From: a virus
IMG/VR virus record: IMGVR_UViG_3300021961_008928
Location: 1-22,563 of that record
Strand: one strand, 5' to 3'
Length of the DNA stretch: 22,563 nucleotides
Shown here piece after piece: positions 6,001 to 21,106 of the stretch; within the stretch, counting starts at the first letter, position 1; the number at the start of each line of letters is the position of its first letter. A model generated the notes under the pieces. It did not search any database. It was given only the letters and a program-made list of their open reading frames with translations, and was not told where the DNA came from. The position numbers and the translations under genes are program-made.

Positions 6001-6026
6001 TAAGAGGAATTGCACTGGCGGTTTAA
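1..6026 (+). CDS. DUF4815-type giant tail/baseplate structural protein (5' partial)
   Basis: The reading frame is open to the left edge (first full codon at 3), so the ATG at 60 is an internal Met. The upstream codons read ARELTQAQSILQNQ and run straight into MERSGDHFFKKGAMVIPG, the usual start region of DUF4815 proteins in marine T4-like phages. At least 2007 residues are present. Counting from the Met at 60: short G-E-x-[IL]-[ST]-G beta repeats lie near residues 45, 92, 430 and 546; a GHNFIEGQQITL segment near 472; a KLERRIENVEYYTQLSLLEA helix near 1067; DWIDPIAQTF near 1478; and a late beta module starting at HGMHGTSNNV near 1672. The composition is rich in Thr, Ser, Gly and Asn, with no signal peptide or membrane segment. 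DUF4815 proteins are virion proteins of marine T4-like phages; a role in the baseplate or proximal fibre is inferred. A small coiled-coil gene follows directly. Confidence 0.85.
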   Translation, partial: GFAVQARELTQAQSILQNQMERSGDHFFKKGAMVIPGEIAFDVNYYAVKLSSIESGVSLSSFNGITITGGTSGVQARVVNVVATDGTDPNTLYVKYIDSGTSKTATAFSNGETLSGTASLSGVDTTITCVVDTTATGSAASIVAGVYYINGFYVSVDDQTIILDKYTNTPSYRVGVTITESFVTPNDDASLNDNAAGSSNVNAPGAHRFKINLTLAKKTLTTTEDNNFIELLRLENGFRQNQVRNTEYAILEDNLARRTFDESGDYTVREFDLDVREHLKSGSNRGIYASGSGGDSAKLAAGIGPGKAYVKGYELENIGTTYVDIDKARDFNTDNNFNTRFDVGNYVNVTNVYGSPDIGFVSGDVEAFKLVNLFKTATSSRGTAQSTSGVDVPQIGRAKSKGFEYVTGTASGNTFASSSLTSAIYKHYLFDINMFTHINITTNQTFTTGEVITGSTSSATATVQSISAVESQTVNSITSASPGVVTISGGHNFIEGQQITLAGTYEVDSAAVSTAVYTVRNPDSTTFELYETDGTTAVNVTGFTSATATHGVVVVSNVQGTFNTGETITGGTSSNTAVIQSNAVGFNAIRNYDFPSVKQIAMAGSPTYTADTATDATYGENFPLFGSLSVANSGTTVTGFGTLFTTELKIGDSVTFTTDAGTSITRIVESITSDTSLELLTAVGGGDVSTKTSATRKRGKLQDSNKNISIFELPYTRIKTLKTTTNSGITDTNFEIRRHFTGTLSSNGDVTITAGTNETFSSLAELDFTVSIMTTGAGVSGAVGDVLSLSGNNHEGDPIFNLGGSPSGKTLTIDFGANYQGHKVKILATINRSVANSKSKTLNSNSTIQKTGQTEIESGTIGLGKADVYQINAVYMSANFSTNATTSDTDITSRFTLDTGQRDNYYDIGRLVLKTGELAPTGRLLVDFDFFSHGSGDYFDVDSYSGVIDYENIPSYLSDTTGRQYDLRDCLDFRPRVDDASTINSGTQDRSYDGSGGSTVDVVKFNSNVSTDFEYYLPRIDKIFLDKEGNFKVIKGSSDLKPQIPKGLDGAMHLYTLFLNPYTLDEKDLTVEKQDNRRYTMRDIGKLERRIENVEYYTQLSLLEANAQSLQIQDAEGFDRFKNGFIVDNFTGHGIGDAGNLDYKVSMDMGRGQMRPLFNEESVQLIEADDDGTSILASDRTAANYQKTGDLITLPYTETTIVDQPYASKYVNVNPYNIFTWTGSIALDPPGDEWKETERVPDLLINEEGSFDTMVAALGNPNLESIEIDTVWNEWQDHWIGAPVETVTRGQIQRTHNRVAGRGRGAGGWTVNARDNVVTTNQQVQQTRSGIRTAIVPQVVRTALGDKVLSIAFIPFIRSRTVNFTATRLKPNTRVYAFFDDVDVTSYVTPTGGSLGGNLVTDSSGAVSGTFAIPDPTNNSNPRWRTGQRVFRLTSSVTNSTTDVETAGEADYIARGSIETVQNTIVSTREAQTVRQTVTDTRNLNRTSTRTTQEVIDWIDPIAQTFMVDDNGGAFITSIDLYAQSKDDTLPITLQIREVVNGYPSRTIVPFGEVVLNPNQVNISADASTATKFTFNSPVYLQEKTEYCLCLLANTNNYNMWVARVGDKQVGSDRTISEQPYAGVMFKSQNGSTWTAEQLEDIKMKINRAEFSNVTGTVTLCNDSVPVKTLKNNPIRTTNTSGVIRIFHKNHGMHGTSNNVTIAGVPSGTYNGITADQINGTYTSISNVTLDSYDVTTAGTATATGDVGGTAVTATQNRLFDVANVNLATMTVPGTGITYSIRGTTGRSIHGSESEFSLTSATNALGFNPGDNIYFTAPQMVASDINQTNEMAGSKSLFINLSMTTTSTNLSPVLDVARMSMVAVQNRLNQPTAGNTPNFIDDTASSGTSSAAVYVTKPVTLENESTAIDVRLTQNVQSTSSVEVYFRLSGAEEDRNINDISWTPFNGDGSEDISVAPAEDDNTFKEYKYSASNLNTFTSFQIKIVMKGTSSAYPPIIRDLRGIALAV

Positions 6027-6770: not shown

Positions 6771-7139
6771 ATGGCTAACGATTTTAAAAGATTTGCAAAA
6801 CCAGATGTGGGCACAGGCACAGGAGCTTCAGCGACAACTGTTTATACAGTTCCAGCAGGAGCAGGCTCTTCAGCATTAGAAACAATCGTAATTGGTATAA
6901 CTCTAGCAAACAAAACAGCAGCAGGTGTTACTGCTTCTGTGTTTATAGATAACTACGATGGAACTAATGATGTGTACATTGTCAAAGACGCTACAATTCC
7001 AGCAGGTTCTTCACTTGAAGTAATGTCAGGAAATAAAATAGTGTTAATGAACAATGGAACAACTGGTGATATTTTAAAGGTTTCTGCTAGTTCAGCAACT
7101 TCAGTTGATGCAACTGTAACTGTACTAGAAGACGTATAA
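6771..7139 (+). CDS. small beta-rich virion structural protein
   Basis: This gene encodes 122 residues, with a good ribosome binding site (AAAGGA at 6758-6763, 7-nt spacing). After MANDFKRFAKPDVGTGTGAS comes a beta-rich sequence with VYTVPAGAGSSALETIVIGI, then GVTASVFIDNYDG and ATIPAGSSLEVMSGNKIVLM, ending in TVTVLEDV. This arrangement (YTVPA, an IIG-type strand, an AN.T...VTV strand, then an ...IPAGSSLE turn) recurs in small structural proteins of marine T4-like phages and looks like a single beta-sandwich. It is the first gene behind the doubled late promoter and sits nine bases upstream of fibre copy 1. A fibre-associated or decoration subunit is plausible, but no precise function can be assigned. 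Confidence 0.75.
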   Translation: MANDFKRFAKPDVGTGTGASATTVYTVPAGAGSSALETIVIGITLANKTAAGVTASVFIDNYDGTNDVYIVKDATIPAGSSLEVMSGNKIVLMNNGTTGDILKVSASSATSVDATVTVLEDV

Positions 7140-7148: not shown

Positions 7149-9227
7149 ATGGCATATATTGGAAAACAACCGAGTACAAAGTTCTCGGCAGCTGCTAAAA
7201 TAGATACATTTACAGGAGATGGCTCTACAGTTGCTTTTGATTTAGCAAATATCGTACCTGCAGGTGGTGAAAACGGTTTACAAGTTTATGTAAATAACGT
7301 AAGACAAAAACCAGGTGCTTCAAATGCTTACACTTTAGGAAATGATGGATCAGGTGATTTAAAAAGAATTACTTTTACAGAAGCTCCAGAAAACTCGGCT
7401 GAAATATATGTTATTACAACTTTTGAAGCTACAAATATTAAAACTGTAGGTGATGGTACTATTACAAATGAAAAAATAGCAGATGGTGCTATTGATAATG
7501 CCGCTGTTTCTCCAAGTGCGGCCATCGCTGATACAAAATTAGCAACTATTTCTACATCAGGTAAAGTTGCCACTTCGGCAATATCTCAACCAGGTTCTCC
7601 TGGTGTTTACCTTGACGGTACAGGAAGTTGGTCTGCAATAGACACTTCACAACAAGATACAAACGCATTTAACATTGGCCTATTAGGATTTAAAATGGCA
7701 GTAAACGAAGGTTTAACTGTATTTAATTTAGTAGATGGTGTCGTAGATGAATTTAATGATGAGTCTGGAACAGACGAAGCGGAAGGTTCAAACGATTTAT
7801 ATTGTGGTACAAGTGATTACTATATTAACAGTAATACTCCTTCAGGTATTTCAGTTCCTGCTGTATCGGCTGGATTTACAGTAAGTTCTGTTACTGAACC
7901 AGACACTTCAACTGCTGGAACAAATCCTAAACATAGTTTTGGATCATTAGGAACTTTTACAGTTCCCTCTGGATTAACTTCTGTTAATATTAAAGTATGG
8001 GGTGCTGGTGGTGGAGCTGGAGGGCAAGGTGCTGGACCTGATGTAGGTGGATCAGGAGGTTTTGCTTCAGGCACTTTAGCAGTTTCAAGTGGTCAAGTTT
8101 TAACAATTTCTGCTGGTGAAGGAGGAAGGTCTTACAAACGTGGTGATGGTAGTTTAGGACCTTTAAGTCCTGTAAACTCATCAGGAACAGCATTTAGAGG
8201 TGGTGGATTATTTGGAGGTGGAGGAATTTTAGGACCAGATCCAGGATCAGGTAATGATAGAAGTGGTGGTGGCGGAGGAGTTTCAGGCGTTTTAACAGAA
8301 AATTCTACGATACCAGGTTGCCACGCTGCTCCTGAAGTTTACATAATTGCTGGTTCAGGAGGAGGTGCATCAAATGATGGTTATGGCGGACCAGGAGGTG
8401 GACTAACAGGAATAGCAGGAGCAGTTCCAGCAACAGGTAATTTAGCTCAAACAAGCAATAATGGTTATTTTGGTGGTGGAGGTGGTCAAAGTTCAGGTGG
8501 TCAAGCAGGCTGTGGAACACCTGCAGGAGGTAATGGTGCTTTTTTAAAAGGTGGTGATGTAGGCTCTGAACCTAGTCCAATTACAATTACTGGACATATG
8601 GGAGGTGGTGGAGGTGGATATTATGGTGGTGGTGGAGCAACTAGACCTAGTACCACTGACGGTAGTGGTGGTGGAGGTTCATCTTATTATGGCCATCCTC
8701 AAATAACTTCTGGTTCTACAACAGCGGGAACTAATCCAGCTGGTGGAGGAACATCAGATCCAGATTATGTTCCAGGTACAAATGAAGGTGGTGTATCTAC
8801 TGACAATTCTGGTCCTGCTTATACTGATTGTGCACCAGCTCCAACAGCTGCTGCTCAAGGTGAAAACGGATATGTTTTATTAACAGCTTCTGCTGTATGT
8901 GCTACTGCTACATCAACAACAATCGTATCAACGGCCTTTTCTTCAACTTCAGTACCAACAAGTGCTCGTATCGTAGTATTTGAAGAAAACATTGACACAC
9001 CTACATTAAATACTGACATTGTTGCTAGTATTAGTAGAGATGGTGGTACAACATTTACCAATGCGACATTATCAGATTCAGGATATGTAACAGGATCCTC
9101 TGGACAAAGAATTTTAACTGGACAAGCAACTATTTCTGGCCAACCAAGTGGTCAATCAATGAGATGGAAACTTGCCCTTGCTAACAATCAAGTGAAGATA
9201 CACGGTGTATCTTTACAATGGGCTTAA
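7149..9227 (+). CDS. glycine-rich tail fibre / putative receptor-binding adhesin, copy 1
   Basis: This gene encodes 692 residues; AAGGA at 7138-7142 overlaps the previous stop and sets the start. Residues 1-95 form a MAYIGK-type N-terminal module (FTGDGSTVAFDL, then ITFTEAPENSAEIYVI), known from marine phage fibres and probably the virion-attachment end. Residues 100-135 hold stalk repeats (GTITNEKIADGAIDNAAVSP). Residues 174-227 are the conserved acidic linker (NIGLLGFKMAV to SDYY). FTVP near 270 and WGAGGG near 284 open a glycine-rich module that runs to about 575, with GGGGGGYYGGGG and GGGGSSYYGHPQI near its end. Residues 590-692 are the conserved C-terminal domain ending HGVSLQWA. It is the only one of the six copies with the MAYIGK module fused to the fibre. 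The expected role is host-surface binding at the tip of a fibre; the receptor is unknown. Confidence 0.85.
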   Translation: MAYIGKQPSTKFSAAAKIDTFTGDGSTVAFDLANIVPAGGENGLQVYVNNVRQKPGASNAYTLGNDGSGDLKRITFTEAPENSAEIYVITTFEATNIKTVGDGTITNEKIADGAIDNAAVSPSAAIADTKLATISTSGKVATSAISQPGSPGVYLDGTGSWSAIDTSQQDTNAFNIGLLGFKMAVNEGLTVFNLVDGVVDEFNDESGTDEAEGSNDLYCGTSDYYINSNTPSGISVPAVSAGFTVSSVTEPDTSTAGTNPKHSFGSLGTFTVPSGLTSVNIKVWGAGGGAGGQGAGPDVGGSGGFASGTLAVSSGQVLTISAGEGGRSYKRGDGSLGPLSPVNSSGTAFRGGGLFGGGGILGPDPGSGNDRSGGGGGVSGVLTENSTIPGCHAAPEVYIIAGSGGGASNDGYGGPGGGLTGIAGAVPATGNLAQTSNNGYFGGGGGQSSGGQAGCGTPAGGNGAFLKGGDVGSEPSPITITGHMGGGGGGYYGGGGATRPSTTDGSGGGGSSYYGHPQITSGSTTAGTNPAGGGTSDPDYVPGTNEGGVSTDNSGPAYTDCAPAPTAAAQGENGYVLLTASAVCATATSTTIVSTAFSSTSVPTSARIVVFEENIDTPTLNTDIVASISRDGGTTFTNATLSDSGYVTGSSGQRILTGQATISGQPSGQSMRWKLALANNQVKIHGVSLQWA

Positions 9228-9239
9228 TAGGAGAAACAA

Positions 9240-9437
9240 ATGGCTATACAAAGAATTACAAAATCATCTGCTCCAACAGGCAACGCTAAAATCAAAATCG
9301 TTTCAGGTCCTAATAAAGACCAAGACTATATCAAACTTCCTGAAACACCTTATGATCCAAGCGCTGAAGGTGAAAATAGAAAAGTTGATACTTCTACAGG
9401 TTATTTTGGTAAGACAATTGCTCAATTAAACGAGTAA
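9240..9437 (+). CDS. small hypothetical protein inside the fibre array
   Basis: This gene encodes 65 residues, with AGGAGA at 9229-9234 five bases before the ATG. The protein begins MAIQRITKSSAPTGNAKIKI and ends GYFGKTIAQLNE. It is polar, lacks Cys and Trp, and has no membrane segment. Its start MAIQRITK resembles the MAINKIK and MAITKITK starts of fibre copies 2 and 3. It could therefore be a detached fibre N-terminus or a small fibre-associated protein, but the match is short. A strong ribosome binding site and its fit between two conserved genes favour a real gene. A longer open frame at 9205-9429 overlaps it but lacks a ribosome binding site. Function unknown. Confidence 0.7.
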   Translation: MAIQRITKSSAPTGNAKIKIVSGPNKDQDYIKLPETPYDPSAEGENRKVDTSTGYFGKTIAQLNE

Positions 9438-9461
9438 AAAAAATTTAAAGAGAGAGATTAG

Positions 9462-11102
9462 ATGGCAATTAATAAAATCAAAACAGGCTCTATTCAGGAT
9501 AACACAATTACGGCTGATGATATACAAGACGGTGCTATTACAAACGCCAAAGTAAATGCTTGTGCCGCTATTGCTCAATCTAAAATATCTGGCCTTACTA
9601 CATCTATTTCAAATCTTTGTTCTTCTATTTCAAGTGTTTCAAGTAATATAAGTCAACAAGCAAATAATATTGGGTTGTTAGGTTTTAAAATGGCCGTCAA
9701 TGACGGTTTAACAATTTTTAATCTGGTCGATGGTGTCGTTGATGAGTTCAATGATGAATCAGGAACAGACGAGGCCGAAGGATCAAATGATTTATATAAT
9801 GCCGATTCAGATTTCTATGTTAATTCAGATTCACCAACTGGTGCACCTTATTCAGGTTCACCTGTGTGTTATAGTGCAGGTTTTGGTTCAAATTCTATAA
9901 CCGAACCTGATACTTCAACAGATAATGGTAATGGTAACTCAAAAGATTATACAGTACCACAAGGTATGACAAGTGTATCATTCGTTGCTTGGGGTGGTGG
10001 AGGTGGTGCTGGAGGTGATGGTGGAAATGGTGGTGGAGGAGGAAGTGTTTCTGGAAATCTTGCTGTTACTCCTGGGCAATCGTTAAAAGTTTTTATTGGA
10101 GAAGGTGGTACATATCAGTTTGGTGGTGGAGAAGGTGGTGGACCTCATCCTAATAGAGGTAATGGTTTTGGTGGTGGAAGAGGTAATATAAGTTCAAACA
10201 ACTTTGCTGGTACTGGTGGGGGAGCAACTTTTGTTTCTTTTGGTTGTACACCTAATAATAATTTTGATCCCGTTCCTCAGATGGCTTTTGTAGCAGGTGC
10301 TGGTGGTGGAGGTTCTGCTTCACCTGCAAATAATGAAGGTGGTGGAGGTGGAGGTACCGTAGGTGCTAATTCAGTAAATGCAGATGGTGGACAACAAACA
10401 CAAGGCGGTCCAGGTTCTCAAAATGGTGGATATGGTTTTGGTGGTGATGGTGGACCAGGAACACCTAGTGGTGGTGGAGGCGGATCTGGATTTTATGGTG
10501 GCGGCGGTGGACCTCCAAATGGAGGTGCTGGTGGTGGAGGTTCTGGATATGTAGGAAACCCAGCTGTATCTTGTGGCGCTCAAGCACAAGGTGCTAGCCC
10601 TGTTGTTGCTAATGCAGGTAATCCACTTTATCCTTCTGCTGTCAATGACTCATCTGAAAATGGAAATGTAGGTGATGGAGGAACAGCAGGAGTAGCAGGA
10701 GGTGGTGGAGCTCCCGCAAATAATCAAGGAGATGGATACGTATTTTTATATGGAACTGGTATTCCATCAGTTACAGCAATAACTCAATCAACGACTATTA
10801 TATCAACAGCCTTTTCTTCAACAAGTGTACCAACAAGTGCTCGTATCGTAGTATTTGAAGAAAACGTGGACACACCAACTTTAAATACAGACATCATAGC
10901 GTCTGTTAGTAGAGATTCTGGTGTTACTTACTCAAATGCTACTTTATCAGATTCAGGCTATGTAACAGGATCAAGTGGTCAAAGAATTTTAACAGGTCAG
11001 GCTGATATTTCAGGACAACCAAGTGGACAGTCTATGAGATGGAAACTTGCTTTAGCAAATAACACAGTTAAGATACACGGTGTTGCTTTACAATGGTCTT
11101 AA
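9462..11102 (+). CDS. glycine-rich tail fibre / putative receptor-binding adhesin, copy 2
   Basis: This gene encodes 546 residues; a purine-rich AAAGAGAGAGA tract just upstream is the likely ribosome binding site. The short stalk (residues 1-68) carries repeats of the type NTITADDIQDGAITNAKVNA, then CAAIAQSKISGLTTSISNLC with spaced Ile and Leu that could form a trimeric coiled coil. The linker is at 69-121 and has the variant MAVNDGL, shared only with copy 5. YTVP near 163 starts the glycine-rich module, which runs to about 430 and includes GGGGGSGFYGGGGG and GGGGSGYVGNP. The C-terminal domain is at 443-546 and ends KIHGVALQWS, identical to copy 5. There is no MAYIGK module, so virion attachment must differ from copy 1 or occur through a partner. 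An oxygenase gene follows 35 bases downstream. Confidence 0.85.
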   Translation: MAINKIKTGSIQDNTITADDIQDGAITNAKVNACAAIAQSKISGLTTSISNLCSSISSVSSNISQQANNIGLLGFKMAVNDGLTIFNLVDGVVDEFNDESGTDEAEGSNDLYNADSDFYVNSDSPTGAPYSGSPVCYSAGFGSNSITEPDTSTDNGNGNSKDYTVPQGMTSVSFVAWGGGGGAGGDGGNGGGGGSVSGNLAVTPGQSLKVFIGEGGTYQFGGGEGGGPHPNRGNGFGGGRGNISSNNFAGTGGGATFVSFGCTPNNNFDPVPQMAFVAGAGGGGSASPANNEGGGGGGTVGANSVNADGGQQTQGGPGSQNGGYGFGGDGGPGTPSGGGGGSGFYGGGGGPPNGGAGGGGSGYVGNPAVSCGAQAQGASPVVANAGNPLYPSAVNDSSENGNVGDGGTAGVAGGGGAPANNQGDGYVFLYGTGIPSVTAITQSTTIISTAFSSTSVPTSARIVVFEENVDTPTLNTDIIASVSRDSGVTYSNATLSDSGYVTGSSGQRILTGQADISGQPSGQSMRWKLALANNTVKIHGVALQWS

Positions 11103-11137
11103 TTTTCTTATATATAATTTAAACTATAAGGATTATT

Positions 11138-11698
11138 ATGAATGTTGATTTTATTGAAGAATATAAAAATGTTTTTACAAAAGATGAATGTAAAAATTTT
11201 ATAAAACATTTTGAAGATTATGAAGAAATTGATAAAACTTTTGGAAGAAAAACTTCCAAAAATATGATTGATGATAAATCGTGCTTAATTACAAAAAGTA
11301 TTCCAAGTGATGAATTATTATTAAATTTATTATTTAATAAACTTTCACCATTATTTGCTGAATATGTAAAAAAATACGAAATAGGAATCAATCAAAAAAT
11401 TATTGCTTTAAAAACTTGGGTTAAAATACAAAAAACTTTACCAGGTCAAGGATATCACGGTTGGCATCCTGAAAATATATCATTGAAAGATAGTGCTAGA
11501 ATATTATCATTTATTGTATATTTAAATACAGTAAAAGGTGGTGAAACTGAATTTATATATCAAAACAAAAGAGTAGAAGCTGAGGAAGGTAAATTAGTTG
11601 TATTTCCAGCATATTTTACTCACGCCCACAGAGGAAATCCTCCTTTAAATAAAGAAAAGTATATTTTAACAAGTTGGTTATATAAAACTGATAATTAA
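11138..11698 (+). CDS. 2OG-Fe(II) oxygenase (prolyl-4-hydroxylase-like)
   Basis: This gene encodes 186 residues, with AAGGA at 11128-11132 before the ATG. The protein has the double-stranded beta-helix pattern of the 2-oxoglutarate/Fe(II) oxygenases. Iron ligands are probably H110 and E112 (W-H-P-E, an HxE form of the HxD/E motif) and a distal His in FPAYFTHAHRG (H162 or H164). K174 in KYILTSW is the likely 2-oxoglutarate carboxylate ligand, as in prolyl 4-hydroxylases. RILSFIVYLN at 121-130 and GGETEF at 134-139 are typical core strands. It would oxidise a substrate using O2 and 2OG, releasing CO2 and succinate. It sits between fibre copies 2 and 3 and is very AT-rich compared with them, suggesting separate acquisition. 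The substrate is unknown; a fibre protein is one possibility. Confidence 0.8.
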   Translation: MNVDFIEEYKNVFTKDECKNFIKHFEDYEEIDKTFGRKTSKNMIDDKSCLITKSIPSDELLLNLLFNKLSPLFAEYVKKYEIGINQKIIALKTWVKIQKTLPGQGYHGWHPENISLKDSARILSFIVYLNTVKGGETEFIYQNKRVEAEEGKLVVFPAYFTHAHRGNPPLNKEKYILTSWLYKTDN

Positions 11699-11724
11699 AT
11701 AAATATAACATAAGGAGATAGATA

Positions 11725-13398
11725 GTGGCCATTACAAAGATAACTAAACTACCTGATAACGTAGTCAGTACAGCAAAAGTTGCACCTAATACGGTAACCA
11801 ATGCTGATCTAAATACTTGTGCCGCTATTGCTCAATCAAAACTTTCAGGTCTTACCACTTCATTAAGTAATATTTGTTCTGCTGTAACAACAGCAACGGC
11901 AGAAAATAGTAGAAACGCTTTTAACATTGGCCTTTTAGGATTTAAAATGGCCGTCAATGAATCATTAACGGTGTTTAATTTAATTGATGGTGTTGTGGAT
12001 GAATTTAATGATGAAAGTGGAACGGATGAGGCCGAGGGTTCAAATGATATTTATTGTGCTACAAGTGATTACTATACAAATCAATGTACTTCACCTGCTT
12101 CTTTTTCAGCAGGATTTACAACTACATCAATAACTGAACCTGATACTTCAACTGCTGGTACAAACCCAGCTTACGGTTGCGGTTCTTTTGGCACATTTAC
12201 TGTTCCTGATTCAATGACATCATTGATAGCATATACTTTTGGTGCTGCTGGAGGAGGTGGGGATTTTCCAAGACCTTACACAAATGCTGGAGGTGGAGGA
12301 GGATATGCTACAGGAACTTTAGCAGTAACTCCAGGACAATCAATAAAAATTGTTGTTGGTGAAGGTGGAGGAAGTGAAGGAGCTACACCTACAACCAATT
12401 CTTTAGGAGGTGGTGGTGTAAGTGGAACATCACAAGGTGGTGATGGTGGAGGATTATCAGGTTTATTTAGTGATGGTGAATTAACAGATTGGACTAGATG
12501 TGGCCACGGAGTTTCAGCTCCTCAAGTTTTACTAATTGCTGCTGGAGGTGGAGGGGCACAAGATCCAGTTGAAGGTGGTGCTGGAGGAGGAACAACAGGT
12601 CAAACAGGTACAGCAGGAACTGGACCACAACAAGATACACACGCAACTCAAACAAGTAATTTTGGTAGCGTACCTGATGGTTCAACAAATATAGGTGGTG
12701 GTGGAGGAGGCCAATCTTCAGGTGGTGCTGGAGGACAAGGTGCTGCTCCTCAAGCAACTGGAGGATTTTTATTTGGAGGTGATGCAGCTCCTGGTGGTAG
12801 TAGTACAAGTCCTCAATATGCTGGTGGTGGCGGAGGCGGATATTATGGAGGTGGTGCTGGTAGTAGACCTTTAGGAGGACACGGAAGTGGTGGAGGAGGT
12901 TCTTCTTATATAGGTAATCCTCAAATATCTAGTGGTTCAACTGAAGCTGGCGATCAAAACGCTGGTGGAGGAACAGCAAGTCCTGTTTATGTTCCTGGTA
13001 CAAATGAAGGATTGCCAAGTGCTAACGCAGCTGGAGAAGATGGTTATGTATTACTAACAGGTTGTGGAACTGTAACAACAACAGCTTCAACAACAATAGT
13101 ATCAGCGGCCTTTACTTCAACAAGTGTGGCCACATCTGCTAGAATAGTTGTATTTGAAGAAAACATTGATACACCAACTTTAAACACAGACATTATAGCA
13201 TCCGTTTCACGTGATGGTACTAATTTTACCAATGCCACACTATCAGATTCAGGTTATGTAACAGGTAGTTCAGGTCAAAGAGTATTGACAGGACAAATAG
13301 ATATTTCAGGCCAACCATCAGGTCAATCAATGAGATGGAAGTTACAATTGGCCAATAACCAAGTAAAAATACACGGAGTATCTTTAAGTTGGGCTTAA
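11725..13398 (+). CDS. glycine-rich tail fibre / putative receptor-binding adhesin, copy 3
   Basis: This gene encodes 557 residues from a GTG start at 11725, supported by a strong TAAGGAGA at 11711-11718 and by the MAITKITK start matching other fibres. The stalk (1-66) has TVTNADLNTCAAIAQSKLSG and SLSNICSAV, close to copy 2. The linker is at 67-119 with MAVNESL, shared only with copy 6. FTVP near 158 opens the glycine-rich module, which ends near 445; the AVTPGQSIKIVVGEGG motif lies near 200 and GGGGGGYYGGGAG near 368. The C-terminal domain spans 455-557 with SVATSAR and ends HGVSLSWA. No promoter-like site precedes it, so it is probably co-transcribed with copies 1 and 2. It is the last gene of the first late operon. 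Confidence 0.85.
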   Translation: MAITKITKLPDNVVSTAKVAPNTVTNADLNTCAAIAQSKLSGLTTSLSNICSAVTTATAENSRNAFNIGLLGFKMAVNESLTVFNLIDGVVDEFNDESGTDEAEGSNDIYCATSDYYTNQCTSPASFSAGFTTTSITEPDTSTAGTNPAYGCGSFGTFTVPDSMTSLIAYTFGAAGGGGDFPRPYTNAGGGGGYATGTLAVTPGQSIKIVVGEGGGSEGATPTTNSLGGGGVSGTSQGGDGGGLSGLFSDGELTDWTRCGHGVSAPQVLLIAAGGGGAQDPVEGGAGGGTTGQTGTAGTGPQQDTHATQTSNFGSVPDGSTNIGGGGGGQSSGGAGGQGAAPQATGGFLFGGDAAPGGSSTSPQYAGGGGGGYYGGGAGSRPLGGHGSGGGGSSYIGNPQISSGSTEAGDQNAGGGTASPVYVPGTNEGLPSANAAGEDGYVLLTGCGTVTTTASTTIVSAAFTSTSVATSARIVVFEENIDTPTLNTDIIASVSRDGTNFTNATLSDSGYVTGSSGQRVLTGQIDISGQPSGQSMRWKLQLANNQVKIHGVSLSWA

Positions 13399-13416
13399 TA
13401 TGATGAAAAAAAATTG

Positions 13417-13425
13417 TATAAATAG
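13417..13425 (+). promoter_or_regulatory. T4-type late promoter dividing the fibre array
   Basis: TATAAATAG lies in the 55-nt gap after fibre copy 3, 28 bases before the ATG at 13454. It is the only perfect late-promoter core I found between 6755 and 18935, so it splits the six fibres into copies 1-3 and copies 4-6. Confidence 0.72.
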
Positions 13426-13453
13426 TATTAGAATTAAAAAGGATTAATCTTAT

Positions 13454-14056
13454 ATGGCTTACATAGGTAAAACACCCGATTATGGAACTTTTGAAAAACA
13501 ATTGCTTACAGCAGACGGGTCAACAACTACATTTAATTTAAACTATACAATAGGGTCATCTAGCTCTATTTTAGTATCTGTTTCAGGTGTTGTACAAGAG
13601 CCAGAGGTCGCTTACAATATTTCAGGTGGCGGAACATCCATTGTGTTTTCAGCCGCTCCAGAATCAGGCGAAACAGTTTTTGTAATCTTTTTAGGTATTG
13701 CCTTTGATTCAGCAAATTTATTATCAACAGGTTCAATTACAAGTCAAACAGAATTAGCCGAACAGGCCGCTGAAGATGATTTATTATTAATCTATGATAC
13801 TTCAGCAACAAGTTTAAAGAAAATTACAAAGGCCAATTTATCACCCGTTCTTTCATATACAACAAGAACAGCAACAGGTGATGGTTCAACAACAGGTTAT
13901 ACAGTTACAAGTGGTGTCACAGTAGATGATGTATTAGTATTTGAAAACGGTGTGTGTCAACAACCAACAACAGATTATACAGTTTCAGGAACGACTTTAA
14001 CTTTTGGTACTGCCCCAGCAAGTGGAGTTAAAATTGTAATAAGGGAATTACCATAG
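13454..14056 (+). CDS. MAYIGK-type fibre attachment-like protein
   Basis: This gene encodes 200 residues. The ribosome binding site AAAAAGGA is about ten bases from the ATG, a rather long spacing. Two related beta modules are visible. Residues 1-85 begin MAYIGKTPDYG, with TADGSTTTFNLNY, VSGVVQEPEVAYNISG and FSAAPESGETVFVIFLG. Residues 135-200 have TGDGSTTGYTVTSG, FENGVCQQPTTDYTVSG and FGTAPASGVKIVIRELP. Between them is a helical spacer (QTELAEQAAEDDLLLIYDTS). The module is common in marine phage fibres and is also the N-terminus of fibre copy 1. Here it ends without a linker or glycine-rich module, and fibre copy 4 starts 18 bases later. It could be the proximal half of a two-gene fibre; this is inferred from gene order. 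Confidence 0.8.
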   Translation: MAYIGKTPDYGTFEKQLLTADGSTTTFNLNYTIGSSSSILVSVSGVVQEPEVAYNISGGGTSIVFSAAPESGETVFVIFLGIAFDSANLLSTGSITSQTELAEQAAEDDLLLIYDTSATSLKKITKANLSPVLSYTTRTATGDGSTTGYTVTSGVTVDDVLVFENGVCQQPTTDYTVSGTTLTFGTAPASGVKIVIRELP

Positions 14057-14074
14057 TAGGAGATAAATAGTAGT

Positions 14075-15526
14075 ATGACAACAAAAATTACTTCAGCAAA
14101 TATAGACGCTACAGTTGCTTCAGCAGCTGATATAGCACCAATAGATTCAAACGCTTTTAATATCGGCTTACTTGGTTTTAAAATGGCCGTTAATGAAGGC
14201 CTTACAGTATTCAATCTTGTAGATGGTGTTGTGGACGAGTTCAATGATGAGTCTGGAATAGACGAAGCGGAAGGTTCAAATGATTTATATTGTGGTACTT
14301 CAGACTTTTATCAAAATCTTAGTGTATCTCCATTTTGTTCGAGTGCTGGATTTACAACATCAACAATAACAGAACCAGATACATCAACTGCTGGTACAAA
14401 TCCAGGTCAATCTGTGTTAACTTCAGGTTCATATACTGTACCTTGTGGAGCGACAAGTGTAACTGCCTATTTATGGGGCGCTGGTGGTAATGGTTGTGGC
14501 TATACAGGTGGTGGTGGTGGATTTGTTTCTGGTAATCTTGCTGTAACAGCTGGACAAACTTTACACGTTGGTGTTGGAGAAGTTGCTGGATATGGACACA
14601 AACCTGGCGCAAGAGCTGGTGGTGGTGTATCTTTCTTAATGAATACTCCAGCAAGTAGATGTGGACCAACTCAAGGAATGCCTGGCATTACAACACCTCA
14701 AATTTATTTCATAGCTGGTGGCGGTGGAGGAACTTCAAGTGCAGGTCACGTTGGAGCTAACGCTGGTCCATCTGCTGGAGCTGGTGGAGGAACAACAGGT
14801 GAAGCTGGTAGAGGTGGAGGAAATCAAACGTCTGCTAATAGTGGTGGTGGAGGAGGAGGTTCTCAATCAACGGGTGGTCAAGGCGGTCCAGGACCTGGAC
14901 AAACAGGAAATCCAGGAGGTTTTTTAGTTGGTGGTTGTATCCAAGATGGTAACTCTGGAAATGGAGGTGCTGGTTATTACGGAGGTGGTGCTGGAGGATC
15001 TGGTACTGCTCAAAATACACCAGGTGGTGGAGGTTCTTCTTACACCTCTCATCCACAAATAACCTGTGGTACAAATGAAGACGGAGATTTAGGTGAAGGT
15101 GGTGGTGTAACGAGTCCTCTTTATGTTTGTGGTACGAATGAAGGTATTGATGGAAATGGTGAAGATGGATATGTTTTACTTACAACAAGTGGATGTATTT
15201 CTTCTCCAGGTGGTTCATCAACAATTGTTTCCAATTCATTTACTTCAACAAGTGTACCAACAACGGCTCGTATTGTAGTATTTGAAGAAAATGTAGATAC
15301 ACCAACTTTAAACACAGATATTATTGCTTCCGTATCACGTGATGGTACAAACTTTACTAATGCCACTTTATCTGATTCAGGATATGTAACAGGTTCAAGT
15401 GGTCAAAGAATTTTAACTGGTCAGGCCGATATAAGTGGTCAACCAAGCGGACAATCAATGAGATGGAAGTTAGCCCTTGCTAACAATACAGTAAAAATAC
15501 ACGGCGTAAGCCTTCAATGGAGTTAA
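14075..15526 (+). CDS. glycine-rich tail fibre / putative receptor-binding adhesin, copy 4 (short stalk)
   Basis: This gene encodes 483 residues, the shortest of the six fibres. AGGAG at 14058-14062 is 12 bases from the ATG, longer than ideal. Only 28 residues (MTTKITSANIDATVASAA...) precede the linker at 29-81, so there is almost no stalk or attachment region. The linker (MAVNEGLTVFNLVDG, then LYCGTSDFY) matches copy 1, with one change (GIDEAEG for GTDEAEG). YTVP near 120 opens the glycine-rich module, which ends near 370; it contains Cys residues at C123, C141, C196 and C288. The C-terminal domain spans 381-483 and ends HGVSLQWS. The missing N-terminus fits with a partner protein supplying the attachment end, and the MAYIGK-type gene directly upstream is the natural candidate. 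Confidence 0.85.
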   Translation: MTTKITSANIDATVASAADIAPIDSNAFNIGLLGFKMAVNEGLTVFNLVDGVVDEFNDESGIDEAEGSNDLYCGTSDFYQNLSVSPFCSSAGFTTSTITEPDTSTAGTNPGQSVLTSGSYTVPCGATSVTAYLWGAGGNGCGYTGGGGGFVSGNLAVTAGQTLHVGVGEVAGYGHKPGARAGGGVSFLMNTPASRCGPTQGMPGITTPQIYFIAGGGGGTSSAGHVGANAGPSAGAGGGTTGEAGRGGGNQTSANSGGGGGGSQSTGGQGGPGPGQTGNPGGFLVGGCIQDGNSGNGGAGYYGGGAGGSGTAQNTPGGGGSSYTSHPQITCGTNEDGDLGEGGGVTSPLYVCGTNEGIDGNGEDGYVLLTTSGCISSPGGSSTIVSNSFTSTSVPTTARIVVFEENVDTPTLNTDIIASVSRDGTNFTNATLSDSGYVTGSSGQRILTGQADISGQPSGQSMRWKLALANNTVKIHGVSLQWS

Positions 15527-15529
15527 TCA

Positions 15530-17206
15530 ATGGCTTTAACAAAAGTTACAGGTAAAGGGATTACTTGTAGTGCTGTTACTGAAGACAAATTAGGTACTTC
15601 GGCAGTTACTACAAATAAAATCAATAATGACGCTGTTACTTCAGCAAAGATTTCTAATGGTGCGGTAACAGCTGATGATTTAGCTTCTACTTTAGATTTA
15701 TCTTCAAAAACAGTTACATTACCAAGTGATGTTGTAGCGGCCGCTAAACGACCTGTACAAGACAATATTGCTTTACTTGGTTTTAAAATGGCCGTAAATG
15801 ATGGCCTTACAGTTTTCAATTTAGTTGACGGCGTAGTAGATGAGTTCAATGATGAATCGGGCACAGACGAAGCGGAAGGTTCTAATGATGTTTACTGTGC
15901 TACTTCAGACTATTATCAAAATGTTACTTTATCACCATTTTGTGTATCAGCGGGAATGGCATATAATTCTGTTACTGAACCTGATACTTCAACAGCACAA
16001 TGTCAACCTGGTGCTCATACTATTTGTATGACTACTGGAACATTTACAGTACCTACTGGTGTTACATCTATGAATTTTTATGCTTGGGGTTCTGGAGGTG
16101 GTGGTGGAGGAGGACCTTGTGTAGCAAGTTGTGTTTTAGGCGGCGGAGGTGGATTTACCTCTGGTGCAATATCAGTTACTCCTGGACAAACTATCTATCA
16201 CTTTGTAGGTAATGGAGGTCAAAGAAATCAACCACCAAATGGTGCTTATGGTGTTTTTGGTTCTATTGGAGGTGGATGGAGACCTGGAACTCCAGGTAAT
16301 GGTGGTGGAGGTGGTGGATTAACATTAATTGGTACATCTCCAGGAGTTAATATAGGATATGCTGCTCCTGGCAATTCTTCATATCCTGCTCCAGCTGTTA
16401 TTTCAATAGCGGGTGCTGGAGGAGGTAGTTCTAATCAAGGAACAGGTGGTGCTGGTGGAGGAACAACAGGACAACGAGGTGCTGGTCCTGCTTCTCAAAG
16501 TTCATATGCTACTTGTGCAAATGGTGTACACGGTGGTGGAGGAGGACACGATGCTGGAGGGCAAGCAGGCTCACCTGGTGGATCATCTGGAGGTTTTATG
16601 CAAGGTGGATGTGCTAATTTATATGCTGGTGCTGGTGGTGCTGGATGGTATGGTGGTGGAGGTGCAGGAAATACTGGACCTCAACACGGAGGCGGAGGTG
16701 GAGGATCTTCTTACATAGGTCATCCACAAATAACTGGCGGTGTTACTGAAAATGGAGCAGGTCCTGCTGGAGGTGGTACAGCAAGTCCTTTTTATGTTGC
16801 AGGAACTAATGAATCAGGTCCAACAGGTAGATCAGACGGTGAAAAAGGATATGTTTTATATACAGCAAGTGGTTGTTCTAGCACACCAGGTGCTTCTACA
16901 ACAATCGTATCAACAGCATTTACATCAAGTTCAGTTGCTACATCAGCAAGAATAGTAGTGTTTGAAGAAAATGTAGATACACCAACACTTAACACCGATA
17001 TTATTGCTAGTATCAGTAGAGATGGAACAAATTTCACTAACGCTACTTTAACAGACTCAGGTTATGTTACAGGTAGTTCGGGACAAAGAATTTTAACAGG
17101 CCAAGCCGATATATCAGGACAACCGTCTGGTCAATCTATGAGATGGAAATTAGCATTGGCCAATAACACGGTTAAGATACACGGAGTGGCACTTCAATGG
17201 AGTTAG
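15530..17206 (+). CDS. glycine-rich tail fibre / putative receptor-binding adhesin, copy 5
   Basis: This gene encodes 558 residues. It starts three bases after the stop of copy 4, with its ribosome binding site (TGGAG) inside the last codons of copy 4. The stalk (1-78) has roughly ten-residue repeats such as NNDAVTSAKI, SNGAVTADDL and TLDLSSKTVTLP, very close to copy 6. The linker at 79-131 has NIALLGF and MAVNDGL, the latter shared with copy 2. FTVP near 172 opens the glycine-rich module, which ends near 445 with GWYGGGGAG and GGGGGGSSYIGHPQI. This module is Cys-rich (C197, C201, C329 and C361), and an extra QCQPGAHTIC loop precedes it. The C-terminal domain spans 456-558 and ends KIHGVALQWS, as in copy 2. 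Confidence 0.85.
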   Translation: MALTKVTGKGITCSAVTEDKLGTSAVTTNKINNDAVTSAKISNGAVTADDLASTLDLSSKTVTLPSDVVAAAKRPVQDNIALLGFKMAVNDGLTVFNLVDGVVDEFNDESGTDEAEGSNDVYCATSDYYQNVTLSPFCVSAGMAYNSVTEPDTSTAQCQPGAHTICMTTGTFTVPTGVTSMNFYAWGSGGGGGGGPCVASCVLGGGGGFTSGAISVTPGQTIYHFVGNGGQRNQPPNGAYGVFGSIGGGWRPGTPGNGGGGGGLTLIGTSPGVNIGYAAPGNSSYPAPAVISIAGAGGGSSNQGTGGAGGGTTGQRGAGPASQSSYATCANGVHGGGGGHDAGGQAGSPGGSSGGFMQGGCANLYAGAGGAGWYGGGGAGNTGPQHGGGGGGSSYIGHPQITGGVTENGAGPAGGGTASPFYVAGTNESGPTGRSDGEKGYVLYTASGCSSTPGASTTIVSTAFTSSSVATSARIVVFEENVDTPTLNTDIIASISRDGTNFTNATLTDSGYVTGSSGQRILTGQADISGQPSGQSMRWKLALANNTVKIHGVALQWS

Positions 17207-17209
17207 ACC

Positions 17210-18934
17210 GTGGGTTCAAAAACTAAACATAACACAAAGTCATTTGCTGACACTACTGTTGAATCAACTAATATAGCCAACAACGCTGTTACATCTAATA
17301 AAATAGGTGCTGACGCTGTTACAAGTGCCAAAATAAACAATGGTACAATTACAACAGATGATTTATCGTCAACTTTAGATTTATCTTCAAAAACAGTAAC
17401 ATTACCTAGTAGTGCCATTTCTTTTGATAGCGAATACTACAACATTGGCCTTTTAGGATTTAAGATGGCCGTTAATGAAAGTTTAACGGTGTTTAATCTT
17501 GTAGATGGTGTTGTTGACGAGTTTAATGACGAATCAGGTACAGATGAGGCCGAGGGTTCTAATGATACATACAACTCAACAGATGATTATTATGTAAATT
17601 CTGACCAAGTTGGAGGTGTTCCTGTTCCTAATCCTTGTCAACCCTTTTCAGCAGGATTTTCAACAACAGCTATAACTGAACCTGATTCTTCTACAACAGG
17701 AACAAATCCTGCTGTAGGTTCTGGAACCTTTGGACAATTTACTGTTCCTACAGATATGACAAGTTTGGTAGCATATGTATGGGGTGCTGGTGGAGGATCA
17801 GGAGGTCCTGCATCACCTTACGATCCTACAGGAGGAGGTGGAGGATTTTCAACAGGAACTTTAGCTGTTACTCCAGGTCAAACAATTTATGTTTCTGCTG
17901 GTGAAGGTGGTAGTGAAGGAGGTACTAATATAACGGGAGCATTTTATGGTGGTGGTGAATGGTCAGTTGCTGCTGGAGGTAATTTTGGAGGTGGCGGAGG
18001 TGGTATATCAGGATTATTTACCGCAGCTCACGGATGTTTATCTTCAGCACCTCAAGCTTATTTAATTGCAGGATCAGGTGGTGGTGGAGGTTCATATGGC
18101 GGTGCTGGAGGTGGTCCAACTGGTTGTGCTGGTGGAACACAAACAGAACAAACAAATGCTGGTCCATCCAGAGGTCCTCAACCACAACCAAGTGATAGTG
18201 GTGGAGGAGGTTCACAAACTCAAGGTGGTCAAGCAGGTTCACCTAGTACAGTTTATTCATCAGGAACTCCAGGTTCTTTATTTCAAGGAGGTGATAGTAG
18301 TTGTCGTACAGGAGGAACTCCTGCTGATTCTTTTCCGTTTTATGCTGGAACTGGAGGTGCTGGTTATTATGGAGGTGGAGGAGGTTCAACTGAAAACGGG
18401 TCCTTTGGTGCTGGTGGAGGAGGTTCATCATATATAAGTCATCCACAAATATCAAGTGCTTCTACTGAAGAAGGCGGTGGAGTATCTGGTGGTGGAACAG
18501 GAAATCCAAATTATGTTGCTGGTACAAACGAAGGAGGTCCAGTTGGTGGTAATGCTACAGGTGAAGATGGATATGTACTATTAACAGGAACTGGAACATC
18601 TACAACAACAGCAAATACATTGTCAACAACTATTATTTCAAATGCTTTTACCTCTACAAGTGTAGCTACTTCAGCAAGAATAGTTGTATTTGAGGAGAAT
18701 GTTGCTACGCCAACTTTAAATACAGACATTATAGCGTCTGTCAGTAGAGATGGTACTAACTTTACCAATGCCACTTTAAGTGATAGTGGTTATGTTACAG
18801 GTTCAAGTGGCCAACGTATATTAACAGGTCAGGCCGACATCTCTGGTCAACCTAGTGGTCAAAGTATGAGATGGAAGTTACAATTAGCAAATAATACGGT
18901 GAAGATACACGGAGTTTCGCTATCCTGGGCATAG
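17210..18934 (+). CDS. glycine-rich tail fibre / putative receptor-binding adhesin, copy 6
   Basis: This gene encodes 574 residues from a GTG start at 17210, three bases after the stop of copy 5; TGGAG in the end of copy 5 is the ribosome binding site. Like copy 3, it is one of two GTG-started fibres. The stalk (1-77) contains NNAVTSNKI, ADAVTSAKI, NNGTITTDDL and TLDLSSKTVTLP, nearly the same repeats as copy 5. The linker at 78-130 has MAVNESL, as in copy 3. FTVP near 177 opens the glycine-rich module, which ends near 459. It contains a Pro/Gln-rich insert (SRGPQPQPSDS) and GYYGGGGG followed by GGGGSSYISHPQI. The C-terminal domain spans 472-574 and uniquely has ENVATPTLN where the others have EN[IV]DTPTLN. 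It closes the second late operon. Confidence 0.85.
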   Translation: MGSKTKHNTKSFADTTVESTNIANNAVTSNKIGADAVTSAKINNGTITTDDLSSTLDLSSKTVTLPSSAISFDSEYYNIGLLGFKMAVNESLTVFNLVDGVVDEFNDESGTDEAEGSNDTYNSTDDYYVNSDQVGGVPVPNPCQPFSAGFSTTAITEPDSSTTGTNPAVGSGTFGQFTVPTDMTSLVAYVWGAGGGSGGPASPYDPTGGGGGFSTGTLAVTPGQTIYVSAGEGGSEGGTNITGAFYGGGEWSVAAGGNFGGGGGGISGLFTAAHGCLSSAPQAYLIAGSGGGGGSYGGAGGGPTGCAGGTQTEQTNAGPSRGPQPQPSDSGGGGSQTQGGQAGSPSTVYSSGTPGSLFQGGDSSCRTGGTPADSFPFYAGTGGAGYYGGGGGSTENGSFGAGGGGSSYISHPQISSASTEEGGGVSGGGTGNPNYVAGTNEGGPVGGNATGEDGYVLLTGTGTSTTTANTLSTTIISNAFTSTSVATSARIVVFEENVATPTLNTDIIASVSRDGTNFTNATLSDSGYVTGSSGQRILTGQADISGQPSGQSMRWKLQLANNTVKIHGVSLSWA

Positions 18935-18972: not shown

Positions 18973-19662
18973 ATGGCAAAAAGAGATATACCAACAGAAT
19001 TTAAAAGAATAAAAGTACCTGAAGGCTACGAGTGGGAAGTTCATAACTTACACGCATACGCTGAAAAGAAAAAGGCCTTTGAAAGAGGTGAAATTACTTT
19101 AGTACAACTACAAGAATTTGAGCACAAATATAGAGAAAGTGCCGAACAAAGAGAATGGCGTTGGCGTAGAGAACATATTATGGCCGAATTAGAACAACAA
19201 AACGCTAAAAACTTTAGGTCGTTTAAAGAAAACGGTAAAGAGTTTGCTAAAAAAATGGCCGATATGGGTAGAGGTATTTCTATGTGGTGGTGGAGAAGAC
19301 CTAAAAAAGGTGCTGGTAAAGGTAGAATGATTCAAAATCCTATTACAGGAGCTTGGCAACAAGAATACAAACCTAATAGATCAATGAATATGAGAGCTTG
19401 GTTAGCGGCTGCTGAACAAGGTAAAGTTATGCCTCATATGAATCCAAAAGGTGTGCCATTAAATAGAGAACCTACTGAAGAAGAAAAAGGTATTAGTGCT
19501 GAAGCTAAAAAGACAAGAGCTCAAAAAGTATGGCAGTGGGTTTTAGGTGAAACAAATAACTTTGGCCGAGGCTGGAATGACCCTAAATGGGGTAGAATTG
19601 ATAAAAGTAGGCCAGGTAAAGGTGGTAGAGGTCCTAGAAGATCAACATACACAGTAAAATAG
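18973..19662 (+). CDS. basic, tryptophan-rich protein of unknown function
   Basis: This gene encodes 229 residues; GTGAGGAAA provides a ribosome binding site before the ATG. I do not recognise the family. Residues 20-100 look helical and charged (VQLQEFEHKYRESAEQREWR, then HIMAELEQQNAKNFRSFKEN). A striking WWWRRPKKGAGKGR stretch starts at residue 105. The second half is Gly/Pro/Arg/Lys-rich, with WNDPKWGRIDKSRPGKGGRG near the C-terminus. I count 12 Trp residues and a clear excess of Lys and Arg. There is no signal peptide or membrane helix, although WWW in a basic context could sit at a membrane surface. It has its own late promoter directly after the fibre array, suggesting a late role such as a virion, internal or assembly protein. 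Nucleic-acid binding is also possible. Neither is supported by a recognised motif. Confidence 0.8.
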   Translation: MAKRDIPTEFKRIKVPEGYEWEVHNLHAYAEKKKAFERGEITLVQLQEFEHKYRESAEQREWRWRREHIMAELEQQNAKNFRSFKENGKEFAKKMADMGRGISMWWWRRPKKGAGKGRMIQNPITGAWQQEYKPNRSMNMRAWLAAAEQGKVMPHMNPKGVPLNREPTEEEKGISAEAKKTRAQKVWQWVLGETNNFGRGWNDPKWGRIDKSRPGKGGRGPRRSTYTVK

Positions 19663-19722: not shown

Positions 19723-20409
19723 ATGAAAAGTCCATTTATACAGGTTGAACAACCTAAACAATTAGAATTTAAAGTAGAAGATATTTTTAGGTGCCCAATC
19801 TATATTTCCCATAAACCTGAATGGGTAAAAGATTTAAATAAGGCTTCTGATCCAATTATTAAAAGAGTTGAAGATAATTGGAAAAAGAAAATTAAAGATA
19901 AAAACGATCCAACAACTACAATGCCTAATTCACTACATAGTGAATTGTTATGGCAATATCCAGAATTTAAAGATATAGCAAATTTAATCTTACAACAAGG
20001 TTGGAACATATTACATTGGCAAGGTTATAATTTAGATAATCGTATACCAATGTTAACAGAATTATGGGTACAAGAATTTCCTGAAGTTGGTGGATTCCAC
20101 GATATACACGAACACGGCAATAATCACATTTCAGGTTTTTATTTTTTAAAGTGTTCAGAAAAAACATCTCATCCTGTTTTCCACGATCCAAGACCTGGTA
20201 AAAAAATGACGGACTTAATGATGAAAGACCCTAGTAAAGTAAATTATGGTTCTTCACAAATACATTATAAAGTAAAACCAGGACAATTTATTTTCTTTAA
20301 CTCTTATATGCCACACGCTTATGTACATCATAAGGGTAAAGAGAAATTTAGATTTATACACTTTAATATGCAGGCCGTGATTGATCCTGGTAAGTCAACA
20401 CAGGTCTAA
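19723..20409 (+). CDS. 2OG-Fe(II) oxygenase-like protein, dual early/late promoter
   Basis: This gene encodes 228 residues; AAGTGAG upstream of the ATG is the ribosome binding site. The likely metal centre is in GGFHDIHEHGNNHISGFYFL (H126, H129, H131 and H135 are candidates), followed by HDPRP at 154-158 and a distal His in FNSYMPHAYVHH (H198). R210 in FRFIHFN is a candidate 2-oxoglutarate ligand. This order (His cluster, SG-x-YY/FY-x-K strand, DP turn, distal His, R.....FN) is that of the phage-abundant 2OG-Fe(II) oxygenase group represented by TIGR02466/PF13759, and it parallels the gene at 21106. The His-rich first motif is denser than usual. It opens a set of three oxygenase genes. Substrate unknown. 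The consensus sigma70-type promoter suggests it may be needed early in infection. Confidence 0.75.
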   Translation: MKSPFIQVEQPKQLEFKVEDIFRCPIYISHKPEWVKDLNKASDPIIKRVEDNWKKKIKDKNDPTTTMPNSLHSELLWQYPEFKDIANLILQQGWNILHWQGYNLDNRIPMLTELWVQEFPEVGGFHDIHEHGNNHISGFYFLKCSEKTSHPVFHDPRPGKKMTDLMMKDPSKVNYGSSQIHYKVKPGQFIFFNSYMPHAYVHHKGKEKFRFIHFNMQAVIDPGKSTQV

Positions 20410-20443: not shown

Positions 20444-21106
20444 ATGCCTAAAACAAAAAAGAAAACAACAAAAAAGGTTGTAACTAAAACAAAAAAACCT
20501 GTTGTTCAAAAAGCACAACAGCCTGCTGAACAACAAAATCAAGTAAAACTACAAGCAAATAATCAATTTTGTTCTATACTTCACGCTACATTTTTTGATA
20601 CAAAACAATGTGACGCTATATTAAAACAAACTGTAGAAGAATTATGGATGTCAGGTGAAACAATTGGTGGTGGTGTTAATAAAAAAGTTAGACACGTTGA
20701 ACAACAAGTTTTACCAATCAATGATAAAGGTTGGCCATTAATAAGAATATTAGAATTAGCAAAACAAGCTAATAATGCTAGATTTAAATTTGATATGGCA
20801 GGATTTTTAGATGTTGACGCACCTATGATTATGAGATATGAAAAAGGTGGACATTATGATTGGCACGTAGATACAGGTAATTCTGTATGTCATAGAAAAT
20901 TAAGTTTTACGATACAACTATCTGATTCAAAAGATTATGAAGGTGGAGATATTGAATTTATTGGTTCAAAAGTAGATACAAAGGCCTTTAGACAAAAAGG
21001 TGTTTGTATAATCTATCCATCATTTTTACCTCATAGAATTACAAAAGTAACAAAGGGTGTAAGACACGCAATCGTTGGATGGATTCACGGTCCTACTTTT
21101 AAATAA
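20444..21106 (+). CDS. 2OG-Fe(II) oxygenase (P4H/PKHD-type) with Lys-rich N-terminus
   Basis: This gene encodes 220 residues; GAGGAG precedes the ATG. Residues 1-40 are Lys- and Gln-rich (MPKTKKKTTKKVVTKTKKPV, then QKAQQPAEQQNQ) and look disordered, a possible tether or nucleic-acid contact. The catalytic domain follows. H141 and D143 in GGHYDWHVDTG are the canonical HxD iron ligands, H197 in YPSFLPHRI is the distal ligand, and R207 in GVRHAIVGWIHG is the 2-oxoglutarate ligand. RKLSFTIQLSDSKDYEGGDI supplies the core strands typical of PKHD and prolyl-4-hydroxylase-like enzymes. All key residues are present, so an active enzyme is expected. Its stop overlaps the next start (TAATG), suggesting coordinated synthesis with the following oxygenase. 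Substrate unknown; protein side chains, including virion proteins, are plausible. Confidence 0.88.
   Translation: MPKTKKKTTKKVVTKTKKPVVQKAQQPAEQQNQVKLQANNQFCSILHATFFDTKQCDAILKQTVEELWMSGETIGGGVNKKVRHVEQQVLPINDKGWPLIRILELAKQANNARFKFDMAGFLDVDAPMIMRYEKGGHYDWHVDTGNSVCHRKLSFTIQLSDSKDYEGGDIEFIGSKVDTKAFRQKGVCIIYPSFLPHRITKVTKGVRHAIVGWIHGPTFK

Follow-up and report, generated by a model that had tools for sequence, protein, structure and literature searches.

Why should one phage carry six glycine-rich fibre genes side by side, and which part of them changes between phages? The question is raised by IMG/VR record IMGVR_UViG_3300021961_008928, a metagenomic fragment of a viral genome, whose whole length of 22,563 bases was analyzed here (hereafter, the window). 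Six open reading frames (ORFs) of 483–692 amino acids, all on the + strand, occupy positions 7149–18934. An earlier note on this DNA had described them as tandem paralogues that share an acidic linker and a C-terminal domain of approximately 103 residues but differ in the glycine-rich modules between these parts, and had compared the locus to a cassette for receptor switching. The reading that we consider likely is that the locus encodes an array of tail fibres or adhesins and belongs to the host-recognition cluster (HRC) of a T4-like marine phage, and that its glycine-rich middles, or heads, are replaced as blocks and the copies are made together. The six genes are as follows.

7149–9227, + strand: F1, 692 amino acids, with a long 'MAYIGK' fibre-base N-terminus; linker 7674–7835, middle approximately 7836–8912, C-terminal domain 8913–9224
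9462–11102, + strand: F2, 546 amino acids; linker from 9669, middle approximately 9831–10787, C-terminal domain 10788–11099
11725–13398, + strand: F3, 557 amino acids, GTG start; linker from 11926, middle approximately 12088–13086, C-terminal domain 13087–13395
14075–15526, + strand: F4, 483 amino acids, with a very short N-terminus; linker from 14162, middle approximately 14324–15214, C-terminal domain 15215–15523
15530–17206, + strand: F5, 558 amino acids; linker from 15767, middle approximately 15929–16894, C-terminal domain 16895–17203
17210–18934, + strand: F6, 574 amino acids, GTG start; linker from 17444, middle approximately 17606–18622, C-terminal domain 18623–18931

Each protein consists of four parts: a gene-specific N-terminus, an acidic linker of around 55 amino acids (NIGLLGFKMAVNE..DEFNDESGTDEAEGSND), a glycine-rich middle of around 300–360 amino acids, and the C-terminal domain. 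Domain searches detected the linker in all six proteins (E 8e-54 to 2.5e-48; 78–89% identical among the copies), together with the C-terminal domain (E ≤ 7.3e-58; 91–96% identity to one consensus copy), which is 103 amino acids long in four copies and 104 in two, so the shared parts described in the earlier note were confirmed. The middles, with approximately 25–33% glycine and repeated GGGG motifs, are 38–55% identical between copies, compared with 84–93% for the C-terminal domain, and the modules between the shared parts therefore do differ, as had been claimed. The conserved ends of that description apply to the linker and the C-terminal domain but not to the N-termini, which are only 9–49% identical among the six.

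To follow these parts among relatives, which are cited here by G and L numbers, viral contigs were scanned with the C-terminal domain, the linker, and the border genes c and t1 (listed below). The comparisons rest on metagenomic contigs, and the fibre pairs are not independent of one another; because the alignment of glycine-rich sequence is error-prone, weight was placed on alignment-free match lengths and on pairs that share a middle. Orthologues in close relatives mostly had ends that were 80–98% identical, and the middle was either kept or had fallen to the level of unrelated copies. Specifically, 98 pairs had N-termini that were ≥80% identical; their middles were <50% identical in 44 pairs, 50–60% in one, 60–80% in 15, and ≥80% in 38, the mean identity of unrelated middles being 31%. 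For example, F5 and its orthologue in G002 (L005:568-2238) were 92% identical at the N-terminus and 98% in the C-terminal domain, with flanking proteins at approximately 92%, whereas the middle was 49% identical, and the edge in identity was sharp just past the linker. For F6 and its G002 orthologue, the corresponding values were 70% (N-terminus), 54% (middle), and 90% (C-terminus). Near-identical middles also occurred on different N-termini (L054/L059, 98%; L078/L104, 99.5%; N-termini 23% identical), and when the middles were clustered at 70% identity, 10 of the 55 clusters were found on at least two N-terminus types.

The length of the middle in the 137 fibres with a linker and C-terminus was −1 to 2 amino acids in 13, 143–239 in four, and 269–433 in the rest. 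In the 13 'empty' fibres, which belong to several lineages, the linker joins the C-terminal domain directly. One such fibre, that of the L087-L092/L100 group, was recovered on seven contigs with seven sample ids, and the empty fibres of L083/L084 are under purifying selection (nonsynonymous divergence, dN, 0.017; synonymous divergence, dS, 0.116), indicating that they are not plain wrecks. Fibres of L108-L111 combine the same linker and C-terminal type with glycine-poor middles of 143–239 amino acids, which might represent further kinds of head between these shared parts. The bimodality of kept and unrelated middles, the middles shared by different N-termini, and the empty fibres together indicate that recombination replaces the middle as a block, and show, at the level of sequence, that it has been exchanged as a whole between phages while the ends stay.

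The array directly follows the gene of a VrlC/DUF4815 baseplate protein, inside which the window opens, and is followed by gene t1 and three 2OG-Fe(II) oxygenases. The window VrlC shares 65% identity over its length with its counterpart in Pelagibacter phage Mosig EXVC030M, and the value for HTVC008M is 46%; the phage is therefore T4-like, most likely with a pelagimyophage-type genome, and we infer that it is a marine bacteriophage, probably with SAR11 as its host. In pelagimyophages, a variable island lies between VrlC and gp14, with tail fibres noted downstream of VrlC (PMC7029224). The layout of the window fits this HRC, and the position of VrlC places the array within it; the window stops at 22563, short of the neck protein gene gp14 that forms the other border. 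The neighbouring genes are as follows.

60–6026, + strand: VrlC/DUF4815 baseplate protein (PF16075, E 1.1e-49; phrog_358, 1824 bits)
6771–7139, + strand: gene c, upstream border of the array, conserved and seen at 80 viral loci; late-promoter cores at 6739 and 6748
9240–9437, + strand: s1, a 65-amino-acid ORF after F1, with a 64-amino-acid ORF at the equivalent place in G005
11138–11698, + strand: ox1, a 2OG-Fe(II) oxygenase between F2 and F3 (PF13640, E 1e-10; phrog_61, E 3.4e-43)
13454–14056, + strand: s2, 200 amino acids, with an N-terminal domain resembling the T7 tail fibre N-terminus (PF03906, 28.8 bits; phrog_18673, E 4e-25)
18973–19662, + strand: gene t1, downstream border of the array, conserved; late-promoter core at 18936

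The fibre genes are thus neighbours on one strand, but s1, ox1, and s2 are interleaved, and the row is not the unbroken tandem that had been described. No match to s1 was found in Pfam or PHROG. Gene s2 has counterparts at this position in G005, G007, and G003 (63.5–67.5% identical). Four genes of the 2OG-Fe(II) oxygenase type lie in or after the array (11138–11698, 19723–20409, 20444–21106, and 21106–21843), with similar clusters in relatives, and might modify the fibre or the host surface. Farther downstream, a 115-amino-acid protein (22069–22416), which matches phrog_3304, 'L-shaped tail fiber protein assembly' (E 2.7e-18), and has a weak match to LtfC/BppU_N, is conserved on the downstream side of the array in many relatives and is a candidate shared assembly partner. 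In domain searches, the isolates Mosig, HTVC008M, and Melnitz had neither the linker nor the C-terminal domain; HTVC008M and Melnitz carry other glycine-rich genes nearby. A tblastn search of phage records with the entire F6 gave no match, probably because its glycine-rich part was masked as low-complexity sequence, and domain-level queries were used in its place.

Copy-number change and module exchange, for which the earlier note had suggested comparing relatives, were both found, and the relatives do not show a constant six-gene array with modules that change no faster than the rest. Complete arrays with comparable borders contained six copies (the window, G005, and L042), three (G007/G008 and G003), two (L196, one of them empty), or one (G013, G016, and L055). 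At a second location, in another phage group, L082/L085 had three copies and L099/L061 two, with the same neighbours and with flanking proteins 96–98% identical, so copy number must change quickly. The contigs compared show that whole fibre genes have apparently been gained and lost between phages. Downstream of gene c, L158, L175, L194, and L164 each contain four genes in tandem that lack this linker and are for the most part glycine-rich, which hints that similar arrays of other fibre families exist at this place.

The order of the six fibres is common to the window and G005, and the F1 slot is also present in G005 (N-terminus 76% identical), G007, G003, and G001. When the copies in the window were compared with those of G005, N-termini from the same slot had a mean identity of 0.52 and those from different slots 0.21 (p = 0.0014). 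Slot made no difference to the middles (means of 0.43 and 0.44, p = 0.88) or to the C-termini (0.80 for both, p = 0.34). Between these two phages, slot memory resides only in the N-termini; this pattern is repeated in G007 and G003, whose three slots each are too few to test. The C-terminal domains, in contrast, are 84–93% identical within the window and 72–87% identical to those of G005, and their tree groups the copies largely by phage. Their fourfold-degenerate sites are saturated (0.45 within and 0.42 between genomes), which rules out recent gene conversion as the cause of this likeness; it fits old homogenization or co-adaptation to one partner. These data bear on the alternative that the copies are subunits of one heteromeric fibre of fixed stoichiometry, their C-termini resembling each other through contacts between copies or with a shared partner. 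The slot-specific N-termini and the C-termini that are alike within a phage, at equally saturated silent sites, would be expected of such a fibre, and we regard it as a possible, although doubtful, explanation. However, a copy number that ranges from one to six means that no fixed set is required, the middles are exchanged regardless of slot, and old gene conversion would give the same C-terminal pattern.

Block replacement must also be weighed against divergence of the middle in place, by fast point mutation, insertions and deletions, positive selection, or a diversity-generating retroelement. The middle is the most variable part of the protein, and in kept pairs its dN/dS (0.41) exceeds that of the C-terminal domain (0.16) and the linker (0.14), but this value still denotes purifying selection on the kept middles, and near-identical middles on different N-termini are not expected of divergence in place. 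The silent sites are more telling. In replaced pairs, the fraction of matching fourfold-degenerate sites was 0.54 for the middle, lower than for the flanking genes (0.89), the N-terminus plus linker (0.80), and the C-terminus (0.70); it was 0.50–0.56 for the middles of unrelated paralogues and 0.86–0.90 throughout kept pairs. The silent sites of a replaced middle are therefore as unlike as those of unrelated copies while the adjacent ones are conserved, a pattern that selection on amino acids would not predict and that indicates replacement of the DNA itself. The alignment-free measure agrees: the longest exact DNA match in replaced pairs was 16–20 nucleotides in the middle, over approximately 1 kb, compared with 27–65 nucleotides on the N side and 18–62 on the C side. 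Retroelement diversification was rejected, as no reverse transcriptase or template-repeat match was detected among the window proteins. Divergence in place is therefore improbable as an account of the replaced middles.

With regard to expression, nine of the 10 testable + strand sites of the T4-type late core ATAAATA are intergenic, although DNA between genes accounts for 1.7% of the sequence (binomial p ~1.6e-14). The late cores on the + strand (mostly TATAAATA) are located at 6739, 6748, 11699, 13418, 14063, 18936, 19679, 20411, 21846, and 22446. They precede gene c (followed by F1, s1, and F2), F3, s2, and F4, and F5 and F6 trail F4 by gaps of 3 nucleotides; this placement points to late, joint expression of all the copies. 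The sequence TGGAGT, in the last codons of the C-terminal domains of F4 and F5, doubles as a Shine-Dalgarno-like GGAG for the next fibre gene (window 15510–15529 and 17190–17209). Scans for sigma-70-type promoters and terminators gave no clear excess over shuffled sequences.

Among the window proteins, searches of Pfam and PHROG detected no invertase, recombinase, or reverse transcriptase in this 22.6-kb fragment, the rest of the genome lying outside their scope. A programmed switch under which a single fibre gene is active at any time, by phase variation or an invertible segment, is very unlikely: fibre loci with several versions and an invertase are known, as in the G segment of phage Mu, but no invertible promoter or long inverted repeats were seen here, the array contains just one inverted repeat (23 nucleotides, 83% complementary), and all the genes have the same orientation, with late-promoter cores or 3-nucleotide gaps between them. 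The late promoters, together with the failure to find a switch, point to co-expression and exchange between phages as likelier than programmed switching. The cassette of the earlier note thus stands as a unit of block exchange, whereas none of the devices sought for switching (invertase, reverse transcriptase, or invertible promoter) was seen in the window. We give equally little credence to an assembly artefact from mixed strains, since, although every contig comes from a metagenome assembly, the exact repeats between window copies are ≤39 nucleotides in the parts compared, below the usual length for mis-joining, near-identical arrays occur in different samples (G005/G006 and G007/G008), and the empty fibre recurs under seven sample ids.

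What the replaced middle may do is suggested by its predicted fold. Against PF12810 (cut-off 24.5 bits), F2 (26.0) and F6 (29.8) scored above the threshold, and F1 (22.4), F3 (22.2), and F5 (23.1) scored slightly below it, with no match for F4. An AlphaFold2 model of F4, built from 57 sequences, had a pLDDT of 74.3, the middle and C-terminus being modelled well and the N-terminus and linker poorly. When this model was searched against the PDB with Foldseek, all 21 matches at E ≤ 0.001 were TNF-like plus glycine-rich (TG) domains of ALK/LTK (E 1.5e-7 to 1.1e-4, probability 1.00), and the matches in a viral structure library were mostly annotated as glycine-rich or 'receptor protein-tyrosine kinase', many of them from phages and several from marine ones. 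The middle is accordingly predicted by the model to have the TG fold of ALK/LTK, which is the head type of the fibre tip of cyanophage Pam3. The C-terminal domain, modelled alone, is all-beta (pLDDT 90.8), with no PDB match at E ≤ 0.001. Its remote relatives (34–42% identity), which follow lectin-like domains in Rhizobium phages and are also found in HTVC011P/HTVC028P, show it to be an apparently widely used end domain.

In the mechanism we propose, the slot-specific N-terminus would fix each fibre at its attachment place, the predicted fibres would form trimers, and the TG-fold head, plugged in between the linker and the C-terminal beta-sandwich, would bind a surface receptor, while the C-terminal domain may aid folding or trimer formation. 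During co-infection, recombination would swap in another head or none, with the conserved DNA of the N-terminus plus linker and of the C-terminus as the probable homology arms, and head loss would leave a short fibre. As all copies would be transcribed late, several different heads are most likely made together and plausibly stand on one virion. In known TG folds, the chain runs out to the tip and back, so the two ends of the head should be close together, which would explain how an empty fibre can fold. More tentatively, the linker and C-terminal domain might form a socket for any TG-fold head, working even when empty and kept alike within a genome by the dependence of all heads on one assembly partner, in which case one virion with a changing mixture of heads would spread receptor recognition over many targets.

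Several points weigh against this reading. The F4 model reaches modest TM-scores, up to 0.45 by target, against ALK/LTK, and in a search of the PDB with a profile of the 57 fibres, the best match, Pam3 fibre gp24, was not significant (E 0.21). The case for receptor binding by the heads consists of the predicted fold and the Pam3 and S16 analogues. The metagenomic contigs are fragmentary, and chimeric assembly is conceivable for single contigs, although the key states recur across samples. Exact homology among the window's own paralogues is short (8–39 nucleotides in the linker or C-terminus, compared with 18–65 between orthologous slots of two phages), which would make exchange within a genome less easy.

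SAR11 phages are among the most abundant phages in the sea, and the locus bears on how they track changes in the host surface. A predicted cell-binding middle that is swapped as a block suggests how such viruses keep pace with changing hosts. The locus offers a unit of exchange with defined edges and natural controls, namely empty fibres, one head on different bases, and one base with different heads, which make the part that determines host recognition directly testable.

In the literature searched, there was no direct precedent for glycine-rich tail fibres in Pelagibacter phages. The closest known system, the pelagimyophage HRC (PMC7029224), resembles the array in its place after VrlC, kind of phage, hypervariability, and several tail fibres; however, the word 'glycine' is missing from the main text of that study, and the linker–head–C-terminus architecture, the exchange of heads, and the empty versions are described here. 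Glycine-rich heads with GGGGxGG-type motifs are known from fibre gp24 of Pam3 (PDB 7YPX/7YFW; PMC9608196), where the head lies at the fibre tip with a TNF-like domain, and from the adhesin gp38 of S16 (PDB 6F45), where the variable tips of a glycine-rich lattice are the proposed receptor site. Unlike these, the head in the window is internal, followed in all six copies by a domain of 103–104 amino acids. The extracellular TG domain of ALK/LTK (PF12810) is the best fold match and a weak sequence match, but these are animal receptor kinases, and the kinship is one of fold, from which no function is deduced. The tail-spike complexes of Ackermannviridae (PMC11414711) likewise give one phage several receptor-binding proteins, which are open to exchange or loss, but those spikes are joined by conserved N-terminal domains in one branched complex, whereas the fibres in the window have slot-specific N-termini and are exchanged internally. 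Finally, in metaviromic islands (PMC3909814), host-recognition genes are also among the most variable between close marine phages, but the variation there falls in the C-terminus of the tail fibre, which in the window is the best-conserved part, the variable one being the middle.

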